Source of the DNA: Calothrix sp. FI2-JRJ7
Lineage (GTDB): Bacteria > Cyanobacteriota > Cyanobacteriia > Cyanobacteriales > Nostocaceae
DNA length: 64,000 bases
Direction of reading: 5' to 3'
NCBI GenBank assembly: GCA_019359675.1
Contig: JAHHGX010000084.1
Coordinates: 62,001-126,000 of the forward strand
Part shown: positions 3,626-38,641 of the stretch, piece by piece
Position numbering within the stretch: position 1 is the stretch's first letter
Layout: each line of letters opens with the position of its first letter
Notes under the pieces: generated by a model
Told to the model about the DNA's origin: nothing
Databases searched by the model: none
Seen by the model: the letters and a program-made list of their open reading frames with translations, nothing else
Translations under genes and position numbers: made by a program

Positions 3626-4621
3626 TTAGAAACTATCTGGAAAAATATCTGGGCTGAACATTTCCCATAAAATTTCAAGGTAAGGTTTAAACAGGGTTTT
3701 CTCTCTATCTCCCAATCTGGCGCCAACTTCTTGACGTAGCAGGTGAATCATCGTTCGTATCAGTTCCCACTGAACCCTAAGTGCAGGATAAAGCATTACA
3801 CACAATGGAAACAGTTCGTGTTGAATTGAGCCAATACTATCTTCTAGTACACACACCCATAAATAAACTTGAAACATTTCGACATCGCGGATGCTGGCAA
3901 TTTTTACAACTGGGTTGGAAAGTAAGCCGCTGTGCGTATGGTATCTTGGGTAAAGCATAATAACGCGCTCGCATATCGACCGTGCGATGTCACTACTGAT
4001 GGGTAATAATTGTTGAACTACTTGTAAAGTTGGTGAACTTGCGTCATGTTTGGCAGATGCTTCATATGCTCTTTGTAAAGGCATATACAAAAAATCATCA
4101 ACTACCTTAAAGTAACTATTGACTATCTGCTGCTCTGAGTTAGGAATTTGTTTGAGCAAGATTTGCCCTGTGTAATGTATCTGCATCGATACAAACCCAA
4201 TCACTCGTGCGTCGGTCTCTGTGTAATTCGAGCGTATTTTACCTAAATATCTACCTATTGTTCTAGCTAAGTTTTCAGGTGGTAACTTTTGAGCATAAGA
4301 CTCGATAGCTTTGTTGTATATCGCAAAAGAATCTTGGGAAATTTGCCACGGGTCAATTAACGTGCGGTCGATTTCGTGACGATGTACTTCTCTACCAATT
4401 AGCTTCTCTGTTTGTGACCAAGCATCAATACTAGCTTGGCGTAGCAAATTATGCATTTTTTTAGTAGTACTTTCACGTATATTTACACCCTCGTTTATAT
4501 CATCCGCTCTATCCAAACGCTGGACATATTTTTTAGCCCACATTTTGGCTAAATGAATTACTGGCGAAACTCCTGGCTTACGCTCCCCTTGCGAACCAGA
4601 AACCGATACTGTATTAAACAT
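3626..4621 (-). CDS. unknown protein, paralogue of the gene at 1790-3067
   Basis: The protein has 331 residues and is the shorter and probably more ancestral copy of the pair. It contains one copy of the segment that is duplicated in the downstream paralogue (YNKAIESYAQKLPPENLART) and has an ordinary N-terminus, MFNTVSVSGSQGERKPGVSP. Its many evenly spaced hydrophobic and charged residues suggest an all-helical soluble protein. No catalytic motif was recognised. The two genes lie in the same direction, separated by 558 bases, so they are a tandem duplication rather than a tight operon. I do not know the function. Confidence 0.75.
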   Translation of the reverse strand: MFNTVSVSGSQGERKPGVSPVIHLAKMWAKKYVQRLDRADDINEGVNIRESTTKKMHNLLRQASIDAWSQTEKLIGREVHRHEIDRTLIDPWQISQDSFAIYNKAIESYAQKLPPENLARTIGRYLGKIRSNYTETDARVIGFVSMQIHYTGQILLKQIPNSEQQIVNSYFKVVDDFLYMPLQRAYEASAKHDASSPTLQVVQQLLPISSDIARSICERVIMLYPRYHTHSGLLSNPVVKIASIRDVEMFQVYLWVCVLEDSIGSIQHELFPLCVMLYPALRVQWELIRTMIHLLRQEVGARLGDREKTLFKPYLEILWEMFSPDIFPDSF

Positions 4622-33259: not shown

Positions 33260-34420
33260 ATGACACTTATTGAATTGGTTGTTACATTTTTACCAGTTTT
33301 GATTTGGATAGGATTACTGATTTTTCGAGGCGCCTTCTGGCAGGTGTCAGAAGTCATAGAGGATATGAGCATAGGGGATTGTCACCCTACAGTTTGCGCT
33401 GTAATTCCCGCGCGTAATGAAGCTGATTTATTAGGGAAAACCTTAAAATCTATACTTTGTCAAGACTACTCAGGCACATTTAATATTGTTTTAGTCGATG
33501 ACAACAGCTGCGATGGTACAGCATCCGTAGCGTTGAAAACTGCTCAAAATCTTAATAAAACTCAACATTTACATATAATTAATGCTTTGCCACTGGCGCC
33601 GGGTTGGTCAGGTAAACTCTGGGCAGTTGAACAGGGAATTCGCAAAGCTAGCACATTTAACCCAGATTACTATCTTTTGGCAGATGCAGATATTGAGCAT
33701 GATTTCAGCAATCTCAACAGACTTGTTACAAAAGCAGTTCAACAAAACTTAGACCTTGCTTCTGTAATGGTACGATTACGATGCGAAAGCTTTTGGGAAA
33801 GATTATTAATACCAGCGTTTGTATTCTTTTTCCAAAAACTTTATCCTTTCCGTTGGGTAAACGACCCTAATAAATCTACTGCTGCCGCTGCTGGTGGTTG
33901 TATATTAATTCGTCGTGACGCACTAGAACGCATTGGTGGAATTCAAGCTGTCAAACAAGCTCTAATTGATGATTGTGCATTAGCAGGCGCCGTAAAATCA
34001 GCACAAAACCATCCTATTTGGTTAGGGTTAAGTTCTTTAATGCACAGCTTACGCGAGTATAATTCCTTAGATACAATTTGGGATATGGTAGCGAGGACTG
34101 CTTATACTCAACTTAATTACTCGCCAATATTACTAACTGGTACTTTATTGGGAATGACTTTAGTGTATTTAATTTCACCAATAGCGTTAATATTTGGTTT
34201 AGTAACGAATAACTGGTTAATTGCAGGATTGGGTTTACTAGGGTGGTTACTAATGGCTCTAGCCTACTACCCAACAATTCGCTTCTACGAATGCTCACCT
34301 ATTTATGCTTTTTGCTTACCCCTAATAGCATTTTTATACACTCTAATGACTATAGATTCAGCCTTGCGCCATTGGCAAGGACGGGGAGGCGCCTGGAAAG
34401 GCAGAGTTTATGAAATATAA
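33260..34420 (+). CDS. hpnB: hopanoid-associated glycosyltransferase HpnB
   Basis: The protein has 386 residues from the ATG at 33260 (MTLIELVVTFLPVLIWIGLL), chosen because AAGGG lies five bases before it and HpnB proteins start with such a membrane helix. The frame extends 43 codons further upstream with implausible sequence. It is a GT2-type enzyme: CAVIPARNEADLLGKTLKSI, NIVLVDDNSCDGT and LLADADIEHD provide the nucleotide-sugar and metal-binding Asp residues. Three or four C-terminal helices follow. It is convergent with hpnG, overlapping its 3' end by 13 bases. The acceptor is not proven in this family. Confidence 0.88.
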   Translation: MTLIELVVTFLPVLIWIGLLIFRGAFWQVSEVIEDMSIGDCHPTVCAVIPARNEADLLGKTLKSILCQDYSGTFNIVLVDDNSCDGTASVALKTAQNLNKTQHLHIINALPLAPGWSGKLWAVEQGIRKASTFNPDYYLLADADIEHDFSNLNRLVTKAVQQNLDLASVMVRLRCESFWERLLIPAFVFFFQKLYPFRWVNDPNKSTAAAAGGCILIRRDALERIGGIQAVKQALIDDCALAGAVKSAQNHPIWLGLSSLMHSLREYNSLDTIWDMVARTAYTQLNYSPILLTGTLLGMTLVYLISPIALIFGLVTNNWLIAGLGLLGWLLMALAYYPTIRFYECSPIYAFCLPLIAFLYTLMTIDSALRHWQGRGGAWKGRVYEI

Positions 34421-35088
34421 AAATCTAAATCTCTTGTCACATTCTCTAAAACCTTTAATCCTTGTAAAGAGCCATATATTAAACGACTAGCAGCGATGGG
34501 TTGACGTAACATCCCTAAAGCCAATGGTAAAGGTAAAAGGGCGCCTTCCGGACTAAAAGCCGAATTTAAATTAGGCAAATTATGTTTACACCCATCGCTG
34601 ACTACCCTTAACATTCCCACTTTGAAACCAACCGAACTCAAAAATTCCAGCGCACTAAAACCTTCCATGTCAACGACAGAGGCGCCTGATTTTCCCAATG
34701 AAATCTTCTCATCCTTGGAAAAAACAACACTATCACTAGTTAACGCCTTAACTATCGATACTTTCTGTTTCAAGCATAATTTTAATTGATTTCTATAATC
34801 ATTATCACAGTATAAAACTTGATCTTGATAAATACAAGATTCATAAAGCACAACATCCCCCACATCGTAATCAGGCTTTAAACTTCCACATAAACCCATT
34901 ACCAATGCATATGGCTGAGAATCTTTAAGTAAATTTACAGAGTTATACCATTCTTGTAAATATTTAGTTACAGCTTTACCGCCTACTGGAATAGATATAA
35001 CCTGTGAACTTGTCTTATTAACACGCTTTAAACCGTTACACACAGCTTTATATTCGGCGCCTTGTGGAACAAAAACGAAAACCCCCAT
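34408..35088 (-). CDS. hpnG: hopanoid phosphorylase-like protein HpnG
   Basis: The protein has 226 residues from the ATG at 35086-35088 (MGVFVFVPQGAEYKAVCNGL), which matches the family start. The frame opens 17 codons earlier at 35139, but those codons come from the inverted end of a mobile element (GGSTEVLITSC) and are unlikely to be native. It is a purine-nucleosidase-fold protein of the MTA/SAH type. PYALVMGLCGSL and ASVVDMEGFSALEFL contain the conserved active-site segments. HpnG releases adenine from adenosylhopane to give ribosylhopane, the step after HpnH. It is convergent with hpnB. Confidence 0.85.
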   Translation of the reverse strand: MGVFVFVPQGAEYKAVCNGLKRVNKTSSQVISIPVGGKAVTKYLQEWYNSVNLLKDSQPYALVMGLCGSLKPDYDVGDVVLYESCIYQDQVLYCDNDYRNQLKLCLKQKVSIVKALTSDSVVFSKDEKISLGKSGASVVDMEGFSALEFLSSVGFKVGMLRVVSDGCKHNLPNLNSAFSPEGALLPLPLALGMLRQPIAASRLIYGSLQGLKVLENVTRDLDFYIS

Positions 35089-35090
35089 GC

Positions 35091-35870
35091 AGCTCGTAAT
35101 AAGCACTTCAGTGCTTCCACCCATAACAAACACCATCATCTAATCATTCCAACCCGCACCAAAATTTTCCACATAATACTTAACACAACAATCTAACAGC
35201 CATTCCTTCCCATACTCCTGCAAATACCAATTGATGCTGCTTTGATTCCAATCAAAATTAGATTCAGCCCAACCATGCTTAACAAGATTGTTATGGATAT
35301 AATTAATTGTCGCATAGTATTGACGTTCAGAACGAATCGCGGTCAAAGTAAGAGTACCAAACTTTTCGTCCAGTAGTATTATCCGCAAGATTCCAAAAAC
35401 GAGAAGTTCTACCATGAACAATGCGTAACGACTTGCCTACTACATCAAAGTTTTCTACATGGACTAAAATATGGTAGTGATTTGGCAATACAACCCAAGC
35501 CAAAATTTCTACGCCATTATTTATAAGTTCCTCAAATAGTAAATCAGTAAATCAAGTAGTTCCTGGCGCCTTGCTTCTGTGGACATATGATGTTTATGTT
35601 CGTAGCAAGCTGCTGTAATAAAGTATAGTTCTTGGTCGCGTATGGTGTGTGGTGGGGAGTGAGGAGGGTAACCGCGACTTAAGCGCTGTTGAACTAGTTC
35701 GGCTTTTTGCTCTGGTGTAAGTGTACGATATATATACATTTTGGAAATGTATTGCTAGGTGTTACTATTAGTAGTCTTCCCAAAATTTTTGCGGCTGTTT
35801 ATGTGTTTAGGGTTGAGAATTGTTAAGTAGTATTAAGTTGTGTTAAGCACTGAAGTGCTTATTACGAGCT
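35091..35870. mobile_element. decayed REP-associated transposase (RAYT) element with 26-bp inverted ends
   Basis: A 26-base sequence beginning AAGCACTGAAGTGCTT and ending ATTACGAGCT is present at 35845-35870, and as its exact reverse complement at 35091-35116. Each copy holds the palindrome AGCACT-GA-AGTGCT, a REP-like hairpin. Between them is a frameshifted RAYT gene. The whole unit is about 780 bp. It sits between hpnG and the RND gene, and its left end touches the hpnG start. Confidence 0.8.
35140..35739 (-). pseudogene. RAYT (REP-associated tyrosine transposase) pseudogene, two frameshifts
   Basis: Read on the minus strand, the start MYIYRTLTPEQKAELVQQRL includes YFITAACYEH. After a frameshift near 35530 it continues NNGVEILAWVVLPNHYHILV, with the HxH (HUH) motif intact. 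After a second shift near 35345 it ends AIRSERQYYATINYIHNNLV, with the probable catalytic Tyr, and EYGKEWLLDCCVKYY. The domain order and motifs match IS200/IS605-like Y1 transposases of the RAYT group. The gene cannot make a full protein. Related RAYTs mobilise REP palindromes, which fits the flanking repeats. Confidence 0.85.
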
Positions 35871-35944
35871 GTTTTGGCGTTGCTTGTATACCGAAGTTAG
35901 AAATTAGTTTTAAAATCAAGAATTAGTGGCAACTCCAGTCAACG

Positions 35945-38641
35945 ATGGTAAAAGTGAAGCATCCGAAATCGGCGCGCGACCATTTTAATATATCTAGGGT
36001 GGCGATTCAGAATTCTTGGTTAACGTTATCGTTTTGGCTTGCTGTGATGGTAGCTGGAATTTTGGCGTTTAGTTCGCTGAAGTACGCTTTATTCCCAGAT
36101 ATTACTTTTCCTGTGGTGGTGGTGAATGCTAATGCACCCCTAACTACCGCAGAAGATACGGAAGCTAAGTTAACTAAGATTATTGAGCAGCGTATAACGT
36201 CACTGGAAAATATAGATGATATCCGTTCGTCAACTTATCCAGGACAAGCAGTTGTTAGTGTTGCGTTTGCGGTGGGAACAGATTTAGAGGGGTCTAGACT
36301 CGCTGTTGATAATGCTGTAAAGCAGGTTAAGCTGATTCATGGTTCTCAATATCAGGTAATTCCGTTTAATCTTAATGAATCAGCTGCAATTAGTTATGCT
36401 GTAGAGAGTTCAAAGCTTTCTTTAAATGATTTAGCAAAACAAACCAAAGATAAAATAGTTCCATCTGTATCTAAACTGCCAGGGGTTCTCAAAGTTGTTT
36501 TGTTAGGAGAAGCTACTCCAGATTTACCCCAACCTGTAACTCAACCAAGTAGCGGCGCCACTAAGATAAGATTCAATGGTAAAGATGCGCTTGCGTTCCA
36601 AGTTATTAAACGTGGTGATGCCAATACGCTAGAGGTCGTTAGTAGAGTTGAGCAAGAAGTCTCAAGACTGCGAACAAATTTACCAGATGTCAAACTTAAT
36701 TTAGCATCAACGCAAGCAGAGTTTATTCGCAGAGCGACTCATGCGACAATTGAGTCGTTGATTGAAGCAATTGTTCTATCGGTAGTTGTAATTTATCCTT
36801 TTTTGAGAAGTTGGTCAGCAACGTTAATTTCTGCACTTGCAATTCCAATGTCATTGCTGGGAACGTTTATTGTAATGAAATTGTTTGGCTTTAACTTAGA
36901 AACAATTACGCTGCTCGCACTTGCACTGGTAATTGGTAGTATCATTGACGACGCAATTGTTGATGTGGAAAATATTATGCGCCACATTGATAAAGGTGAA
37001 ACTCCTCGCCAAGCAGCATTTACAGCCACTTCTGAAATTGGAGTGACTGTTACCGCAGCGACGCTAACCGCTGTAGCAGTTTTTCTGCCCATTGGTTTGA
37101 TGGGTGGAGTTGTCGGTCAATTTTTTAAACCGTTTGGAATTACAGTATCAGCAGCAATGCTAACTTCGTTGTTGGTCGCACGTACACTTTCACCTGTATT
37201 AGCAATTTACTGGATTAAAGCAAACTCTAGGCGCCGTGCTGCACATAATGAGAATAAAAGCTGGGGTTATTTTGCCCAGCGCTATCAAGATTTATTGCGG
37301 TGGTCACTCAATCATCGCAAAATAGTAATGGGGTTGGCGGTGTTGAGTTTTGTAATTGGAATAGCAATCATTCCTATTATTCCTAAAGGATTTATTCCCA
37401 AACTTGACAGAGGGGAATTTAATGTTACGTATACAGTATCGTTAACTAAACTAATAGAGCAAAGTAAACAAGCGGCACAAGATGCTTTGGGAAGTTTTTT
37501 AACTCCAGGAGATACGTCATCATTAGCAATATCAAGCGCAAATACATCTATTGACCCCTTGACTTATTCGTTGGAAATAGCCAAGAAACTCGAAGCAGCT
37601 GTAAAAACACCCGATGTTGAAACTATATTTACTACCGTAGGTTCGCGTGAAGGTGAACCAAACAAAGGTACACTTTATGTCAAACTCAAAGAAAATCGAC
37701 AAATTAAAACTGCCGACATTCAAGAACAGGTGCGCGCGCGCTTACCAAAACTTGCCGATGTTACGATTAGCGTTGAGGACATTCAATTTGTTGATACGGG
37801 TTCGCAAAAACCCCTGACTGTCGCACTACAAGGTCAAAACCTTAAAAGTCTTTATTCTTCAGCAGCATCTATCGCACAGCGTCTTAAAAAAATACCAGGA
37901 TTTGTGGATGTAACTTATACAGGTGAAGGTAATACTGATGATACTGCTGACATTTTTCAAATAGAACGACTTAATAACCAACGTGTAGCTTATATTAGCG
38001 CTAATTTAGGTAAAGATTTATCACTAGGTGATGCCACTGATAAACTAGTCGAGTCGGCCAAAACTATAATACCAAAAGACATCAAATTAGATTTAGGAGG
38101 AGACTCGGCGCGTCAGAACGAAGTTCTCGGCAGTTTTACTTCAACACTACTTCTATCAGCACTATGTATTATTATCGTGCTGGTTTGCTTGTTTGGAGGT
38201 TGGCAAGACCCATTAGTAATTGGTATTTCATTACCCCTAGCGCTTGTTGGAGCCGTAATTGCGCTACTTATTACTAAAAGCGACTTTGGTATGATTTCGC
38301 TGATTGGCTTTGTTTTCTTATTGGGTATTAGCAACAAGAACGCTATTTTACTCGTTGATTATATTAACCAACTGCGACGTGAGGGCGCCGAAAGAACATC
38401 TGCCATTCTTGAAGCTGGACCAGTTAGATTTCGACCGATTATCATGACTACCGTTGCTACTATTTTAGGTATGGTACCAATTGCACTGGGTATTGGCGCC
38501 GGTTCCGAATTACGTTCACCAATGGCAGTCGCTATTGCTGGTGGTTTAATTAGTTCTACGCTACTAAGCTTAATTGTTGTCCCCGTTCTATACGCAATTC
38601 TTGACGACTGGTTTAAGCGCAAACAATTTAATCAAAATTAA
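35945..38641 (+). CDS. RND-family (AcrB/HAE1-like) transporter in the hopanoid cluster
   Basis: The protein has 898 residues, shorter than AcrB (about 1,040). The first membrane helix is SFWLAVMVAGILAFSSLKYA. Its periplasmic porter loops are compact, with PDITFPVVVVNANAP and the TAEDTEAKLTKIIEQ start. Membrane helix 4 carries the proton-relay acids in GSIIDDAIVDVENI. The second half repeats the pattern, ending PVRFRPIIMTTVATILGMVP. It exports hydrophobic substrates using the proton gradient. No adaptor or outer-membrane partner is adjacent. Only 14 bases separate it from hpnA, so it looks like the first gene of the hpnA-hpnH transcript. Confidence 0.88.
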   Translation: MVKVKHPKSARDHFNISRVAIQNSWLTLSFWLAVMVAGILAFSSLKYALFPDITFPVVVVNANAPLTTAEDTEAKLTKIIEQRITSLENIDDIRSSTYPGQAVVSVAFAVGTDLEGSRLAVDNAVKQVKLIHGSQYQVIPFNLNESAAISYAVESSKLSLNDLAKQTKDKIVPSVSKLPGVLKVVLLGEATPDLPQPVTQPSSGATKIRFNGKDALAFQVIKRGDANTLEVVSRVEQEVSRLRTNLPDVKLNLASTQAEFIRRATHATIESLIEAIVLSVVVIYPFLRSWSATLISALAIPMSLLGTFIVMKLFGFNLETITLLALALVIGSIIDDAIVDVENIMRHIDKGETPRQAAFTATSEIGVTVTAATLTAVAVFLPIGLMGGVVGQFFKPFGITVSAAMLTSLLVARTLSPVLAIYWIKANSRRRAAHNENKSWGYFAQRYQDLLRWSLNHRKIVMGLAVLSFVIGIAIIPIIPKGFIPKLDRGEFNVTYTVSLTKLIEQSKQAAQDALGSFLTPGDTSSLAISSANTSIDPLTYSLEIAKKLEAAVKTPDVETIFTTVGSREGEPNKGTLYVKLKENRQIKTADIQEQVRARLPKLADVTISVEDIQFVDTGSQKPLTVALQGQNLKSLYSSAASIAQRLKKIPGFVDVTYTGEGNTDDTADIFQIERLNNQRVAYISANLGKDLSLGDATDKLVESAKTIIPKDIKLDLGGDSARQNEVLGSFTSTLLLSALCIIIVLVCLFGGWQDPLVIGISLPLALVGAVIALLITKSDFGMISLIGFVFLLGISNKNAILLVDYINQLRREGAERTSAILEAGPVRFRPIIMTTVATILGMVPIALGIGAGSELRSPMAVAIAGGLISSTLLSLIVVPVLYAILDDWFKRKQFNQN

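Follow-up and report, generated by a model that had tools for sequence, protein, structure and literature searches.

A RAYT pseudogene between inverted REPs at the hopanoid locus of Calothrix, probably the remnant of a host-resident REPtron

Background

RAYTs are described as single-copy former transposases that have long been kept by their hosts without a recognised benefit (PMC8049555, in the excerpts available). The cyanobacterial REPtrons of TnpA-Y1 subclass 2.8 are characterised, in the available portion of PMC6006769, by NHYH, W[YH] and YIHYNP motifs, a length of about 199 amino acids, a proline-rich N-terminus, REP hairpins beside the gene and GT[AG]G guides, and eight proteins stand in the table of the subclass. 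The RAYT/REPIN systems of Pseudomonas and E. coli combine a single-copy, vertically inherited RAYT, flanked by its own REPs, with inverted REP doublets throughout the genome (PMC3116915 and PMC8049555, in part). Tagged short palindromes also make up the REP families GTAG-12, -15 and -16 of filamentous cyanobacteria (PMC3733652, excerpts). A RAYT in a hopanoid locus or a GTAA guide is not reported in the titles, abstract openings and best matches of the open-licence literature, supplements excluded.

The locus studied here lies in a stretch of 64,000 nucleotides from Calothrix sp. FI2-JRJ7, hereafter the window. It very probably represents a REPtron, in which a single-copy, host-resident RAYT and the inverted pair of REPs around it, of the family that it presumably recognised, were inherited at the hpnG/RND site in the genus, the gene having recently become a pseudogene in the lineage of the window. 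The system is of a known kind and was rightly recognised in the sequence-only reading of this DNA; it is older and more fixed in place than that reading had assumed, and its guide departs from the description of the subclass. That guide, GTAA or GTTA against GTAG, is its least expected feature.

Results and discussion

The RAYT gene and its class

The element is placed between hpnG on the minus strand and the RND, hpnA and hpnH genes on the plus strand and carries a Y1 transposase gene that keeps its HYH motif while the frame is broken twice, all as had been read from the letters (Table 1). HpnA, HpnH, HpnB and the squalene-hopene cyclase pass their NCBIfam cut-offs. The product of the RND gene is a permease of the AcrB type; with 24 bits where the cut-off is 752, it does not qualify as HpnN.

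Table 1. Features of the locus in window coordinates
Feature	Position	Strand	Remark
hpnG-like phosphorylase	34408..35088	-	HpnG model TIGR03468 73 bits against a cut-off of 187; named by context
hpnG-side REP	35090..35116	+	5' flank and guide CTCGTAAT, then 16-nt hairpin AAGCACTTCAGTGCTT
RAYT pseudogene, TnpA-Y1 subclass 2.8 type	35140..35739	-	ATG 35739-35737, stop 35142-35140
Y-motif tyrosine codon	35299..35301	-	present
2-bp loss in CG run of RAYT frame	near 35336..35344		position read from sequence
HYH motif codons	35471..35479	-	present
8-bp tandem duplication breaking RAYT frame	35539..35554		
RND-side REP	35845..35871	-	exact inverted copy of hpnG-side REP
RND permease, divergent neighbour	35945..38641	+	

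The features of the RAYT class were found together at this locus: a HuH-Y1 core related to TnpA-REP, flanking multicopy REPs and a single full-length copy. A profile of 14 open RAYTs had E. coli TnpA-REP (4er8, E 2.1e-14) as its top match among solved structures. All three orthologs tested, from Calothrix sp. PCC 7716, the genus member G003 and G052 of another genus, exceed the cut-off of 80 of the NCBIfam model NF047646 REP_Tyr_transpos with 90.7, 94.8 and 95.2 bits, and the IS200 model NF033573 reaches 20 against a cut-off of 55 in the sole protein where it appears. NHYH, W125 and YIH..N are invariant in the 14 RAYTs aligned, which have a proline-rich N-terminus and about 199 amino acids; the residue after W125 is Y, except for H in L040 and C in L043. 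The Y motif reads YIHNNP in the genus and YIHNNL in the window copy, where the NP after the tyrosine has been replaced by NL.

These proteins therefore resemble subclass 2.8 in NHYH, W[YH], YIH, length, N-terminus and gene-side hairpins. They differ from the subclass as given in the excerpts of PMC6006769 in that the guide is GTAA in four species and GTTA in one instead of GT[AG]G, and the eight proteins of its table compare with 45 of 217 family genomes that match the window RAYT at E 1e-30, a count by E value in which the motifs were not checked in each. The likeness to the Pseudomonas and E. coli systems extends to the single copy, vertical inheritance, flanking REPs and inverted doublets, whereas here the REPs are mostly singlets with tens of strict copies, the RAYT is of another subclass and it has recently died (compared with the available parts of PMC3116915 and PMC8049555). 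The tag, GTAA or GTTA, sets these REPs apart from GTAG-12, -15 and -16 as excerpted from PMC3733652, a distinction made by tag with the palindromes not compared. With IS200/IS605 the locus has the HuH-Y1 enzyme and terminal hairpins in common; it differs in being a single copy at one conserved place in lieu of full-length copies at varying sites.

Other full-length copies of the RAYT gene, for which the sequence-only reading had proposed a search, were not found in the window genome, and at more than 70% identity each of the five carriers in the genus has one RAYT locus. Dulcicalothrix desertica and G003 hold a second, more distant RAYT relative (58-59%) elsewhere in the genome.

A 19-nt hairpin, ATACATTTccaAAATGTAT on the minus strand, spans the RAYT start codon at 35734-35752 and is the same in four of the five genus carriers. 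It could act as a damper of RAYT translation.

The inverted ends

The ends of the element are an inverted repeat, CAGCTCGTAATAAGCACTTCAGTGCTT, which occurs once on the plus strand and once as its reverse complement in the window. It had been described as a perfect 26-base repeat; the match is indeed exact, and its length is 27 nt. The hairpin claimed for each copy is present in both as a 16-nt palindrome, AAGCACT-TC-AGTGCTT, with single-strand DNA folds of -4.3 and -4.2 kcal/mol (z -2.50 and -2.16). The 24-nt part AAGCACTGAAGTGCTTATTACGAG had no further match in the window at up to three mismatches, nor in any of 100 shuffles.

The earlier reading had left a choice between recent decay and constrained ends. 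Both hold, on different time scales. All ten end copies in the five species share the sequence of the 16-nt hairpin, and all eight copies in four of these species share the guide as well, at a synonymous divergence of the gene of up to about 0.5. The window gene differs from its nearest ortholog at dS 0.12, so perfect ends after the death of the gene need no special cause there. In the window, the perfect ends probably reflect the short time since gene death, and the constraint over longer time is visible only when the sequences are compared across species.

A different source of constraint would be the host. The hpnG-side REP starts 2 bp upstream of the hpnG start codon (ATG at 35088-35086), and the ends might be kept as leader or coding sequence of hpnG on one side and as the upstream region of RND on the other, and so remain perfect whatever the fate of the RAYT. 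In each of the four GTAA species the hpnG frame runs open through the stretch holding the hpnG-side REP (35090-35139 in the window) and reads STEVLIT there. In D. desertica (L019, just upstream of position 4001) the only in-frame ATGs are upstream of the hairpin (MESTEVLITTGG...), and its HpnG may start in or before the REP and begin with REP-encoded residues; a GTG start further in is also possible. The unchanged hairpins in ten of ten copies agree with such a role as well. However, both ends of G003 share the altered guide GTTA, which is unexpected from a coding constraint on one end, Calothrix sp. HK-06 and G001 keep the gene pair without a REP at that place, and the RND-side REP lies in no gene found. 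Maintenance for the host instead of the RAYT is unlikely, and translation of the REP in the hpnG frame is a possible second constraint on the hpnG-side end alone.

Under the REPtron reading, the window RAYT would have been the maker of these REPs. By analogy with other TnpA-REP proteins, the intact HuH-Y1 enzyme would recognise the 5' guide and the palindrome of a REP hairpin, bind the hairpin in single-stranded form and cleave beside it. It would help to copy REPs and REPINs elsewhere while the RAYT gene itself stayed where it was.

Selection and decay

Seven orthologs, among them the stop-carrying gene of Calothrix sp. PCC 7103, gave dN/dS values of 0.14-0.39 in 21 of 21 pairs, which indicates purifying selection on the RAYT. 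The window gene differs from the nearest ortholog, in PCC 7716, with a dN of 0.027. At codons where PCC 7716 and PCC 7103 agree, it has changed at ten synonymous and six nonsynonymous positions; three of the latter match at least one outgroup and three remain, including the P of the Y motif. Since these substitutions still look constrained, the gene has died recently, which is one of the two alternatives that had been proposed from the window.

The same pattern bears on whether the gene is dead at all. The genome is a Calothrix-type draft of 8.66 Mb in 91 contigs and the rest of the gene looks constrained, as it would if both lesions were sequencing or assembly errors and the strain itself still carried an intact RAYT. 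Errors seldom take the form of an 8-bp tandem duplication or a 2-bp loss, which counts against this explanation, and the window has L in the Y motif where the two nearest and two outgroup sequences have P. Errors at both places are distinctly improbable.

The damage takes a different form in each of three relatives, the window with its two lesions being one of them. The RAYT of PCC 7103 is cut short by a stop codon about 20 codons before its normal end. In HK-06 the gene is absent, with 295 bp between the flanking matches compared with 842-874 bp in the four carriers measured, and no convincing RAYT remnant was found in that intergenic stretch. A phylogenetic tree of hpnG places HK-06, the window and PCC 7103 in one group (90/95) and PCC 7716 and D. 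desertica, both with an open RAYT, in another (97/78). By our reading of this tree the damage would have arisen three times within the first group.

Location and inheritance

The order hpnG-RAYT-RND is found in five of seven genus genomes (Table 2) and also outside the genus, in G146 and G147 of one genus and G052 of another. Matches to hpnG are found in 181 of the 217 family genomes. The RAYT adjoins hpnG in at least eight of the 45 RAYT-matching genomes, the window included and G171, G234 and G245 not judged, and so it does in all of the seven highest-ranking RAYT matches that the family has besides the window. Seven of 37 RAYT loci from other genomes have hpnG and RND on their two sides (four genus members, G146, G147 and G052).

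Table 2. RAYT, end guides and REP counts in the seven genus genomes (exact GTAA 21-mers include RAYT ends; doublets are REPs within 150 bp, G002 left out)
Genome	RAYT	End guides	Strict hits	Exact GTAA 21-mers	Exact per Mb	Doublets
G000, window genome	two frameshifts	GTAA	43 (41 sites)	9	1.04	6
G001	absent		2	0	0	
G002, Calothrix sp. PCC 7716	open	GTAA	79	37	2.98	
G003	open	GTTA	4	0	0	
G004, Dulcicalothrix desertica PCC 7102	open	GTAA	71	29	2.54	10
G005, Calothrix sp. PCC 7103	premature stop	GTAA	48	13	1.12	3
G006, Calothrix sp. HK-06	absent		18	3	0.30	3

A phylogenetic tree of 38 RAYTs, from which the broken or partial loci L044 and L045 and RAYT matches without an assigned locus are absent, joins the five genus members in one clade (100/99) and G146, G147 and G052 in another (99/92). 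Another 21 RAYTs form a third, sister group (99/97) with its own genomic location. The hpnG-site and GT41-site groups are each found at a fixed place, which suggests that RAYTs of this kind tend to stay put.

In all 21 RAYTs of the third group (L034, L035, L037-L039, L125-L128, L131-L142) the downstream neighbour is a gene for a GT41-type glycosyltransferase, and in 16 a more distant relative of that gene lies upstream.

The trees neither show nor exclude that the hpnG-adjacent RAYTs of the different genera go back to one ancestor at this site. The RAYT tree needs two changes, and the eight can be held as one clade at p-AU 0.289. The hpnG tree of 33 rows needs five changes, at least four of them forced by starred branches, and separates G052 from G146 and G147, with which it groups on the RAYT tree.

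The sequence-only reading had expected a discrete insertion whose empty site would be seen in close relatives. No clean empty site was found in HK-06 or G001, the genus members without the RAYT; their intergenic stretch is shared with G003 and shows no clean pre-insertion site when read by eye. A recent insertion with an empty site was rejected, given the RAYT at the same place in five of seven genus genomes and two other genera. The hpnG tree joins HK-06 to the window (89/85), which points to loss of the RAYT in HK-06. That a mobile IS200/IS605-type element landed recently between hpnG and RND, its hairpins being transposon ends, and then decayed would suit a broken Y1-family gene with terminal hairpins that two of seven genus genomes lack, but it is largely refuted and highly improbable in view of the single locus above 70% identity in each genome, its unchanged position in five species and two other genera, the scores for NF047646 and NF033573 and the ends found alone across the genome.

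The guide and residue 129

The end copies carry GTAA in eight of eight cases in four species and GTTA in both cases in G003. Outside the genus, one or more GTAG hairpins lie between 400 bp upstream and 300 bp downstream of the RAYT at 28 of 33 loci, and none was found within these distances at the other five. In the table of guides for the same 38 RAYTs the palindromes were read on both strands, so that 'None', GTGG, GTGT and isolated GTAT or GTTA entries mostly stem from the inner half of a hairpin; the guide of the window was entered by hand from its sequence.

Residue 129 (PCC 7716 numbering) is F in the four GTAA genomes and Y in G003, and in the 33 other RAYTs it is S (29), T (2), A (1) or N (1). 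In a phmmer alignment with 4er8 it stands immediately before an EH pair, which by our reading would correspond to E100 and H101, named as guide-contacting in the excerpts of PMC6006769. Changes of the last two guide positions abolished cleavage in one system and moved the cleavage site in another, according to the available part of PMC8266576. These guide effects and an aromatic residue beside the guide-contacting pair make it plausible that a switch of the guide went with a matching residue.

Tentatively, then, the guide may have changed in the genus from GTAG to GTAA (GTTA in G003) and the RAYT may have followed with an aromatic residue 129, so that enzyme and repeats were matched again, probably with a changed cleavage dinucleotide; the damaged or lost RAYTs of three relatives would then be a natural test of REP fading. 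The proposal is plausible and draws on one clade, with two steps at most. With a naturally altered guide and a candidate residue to match it, this lineage opens guide recognition to a direct test. The RAYT can also be followed at a single site in five species, and because close relatives show it open, truncated, frameshifted or absent, what becomes of REPs once the enzyme is gone can be measured.

REPs in the genomes

The view that the ends are REPs with many genomic copies proved right. A search of the window genome gave 12 places within three mismatches of the 27-mer and 41 strict sites, the own two included in both. The reversed pattern, used as control, had no strict hit in any genome. A looser pattern gave 52 matches with three in the control, and the strict pattern was used for counts.

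The strict sites are mostly singlets, with six doublets among the 41 sites of the window genome. All 22 doublets (Table 2) have the same orientation with tails outward, as in REPINs, and the start-to-start spacing is 28-33 nt in 19 of them.

The number of exact GTAA 21-mers tracks the state of the RAYT in five genomes, with 37 and 29 where it is open and 13, 9 and 3 where it is damaged or absent. The exception is G003, in which the frame is open, the tag is different and exact GTAA copies are lacking. Relative to GTTG, the GTAA REPs number 39:22 in D. desertica with its open RAYT and 39:38 in three genomes with a damaged RAYT or none, a difference that is not significant (Fisher p 0.12) in a comparison of related genomes with PCC 7716 left out. 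Depletion of REPs after loss of the RAYT was therefore rejected as a test: the exact counts fit five genomes, but the p value, kinship and G003 speak against it.

G003 (L029) combines an open RAYT and GTTA ends with four strict hits, three of which are reads of its own two ends, and thus has an enzyme without a repeat population.

Among the 43 strict hits of the window genome there are other guide classes with the same palindrome, GTTG (16), GTAC (7) and GTAT (4), none of which has been linked to a RAYT. This genome has five further Y1_Tnp matches, two of them with the open frame interrupted by stops; they were rejected as a source of the REPs, no REP-like hairpin being among those listed beside them. 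A GTAT-type match lies about 870 bp from the Y1_Tnp match on contig C52.
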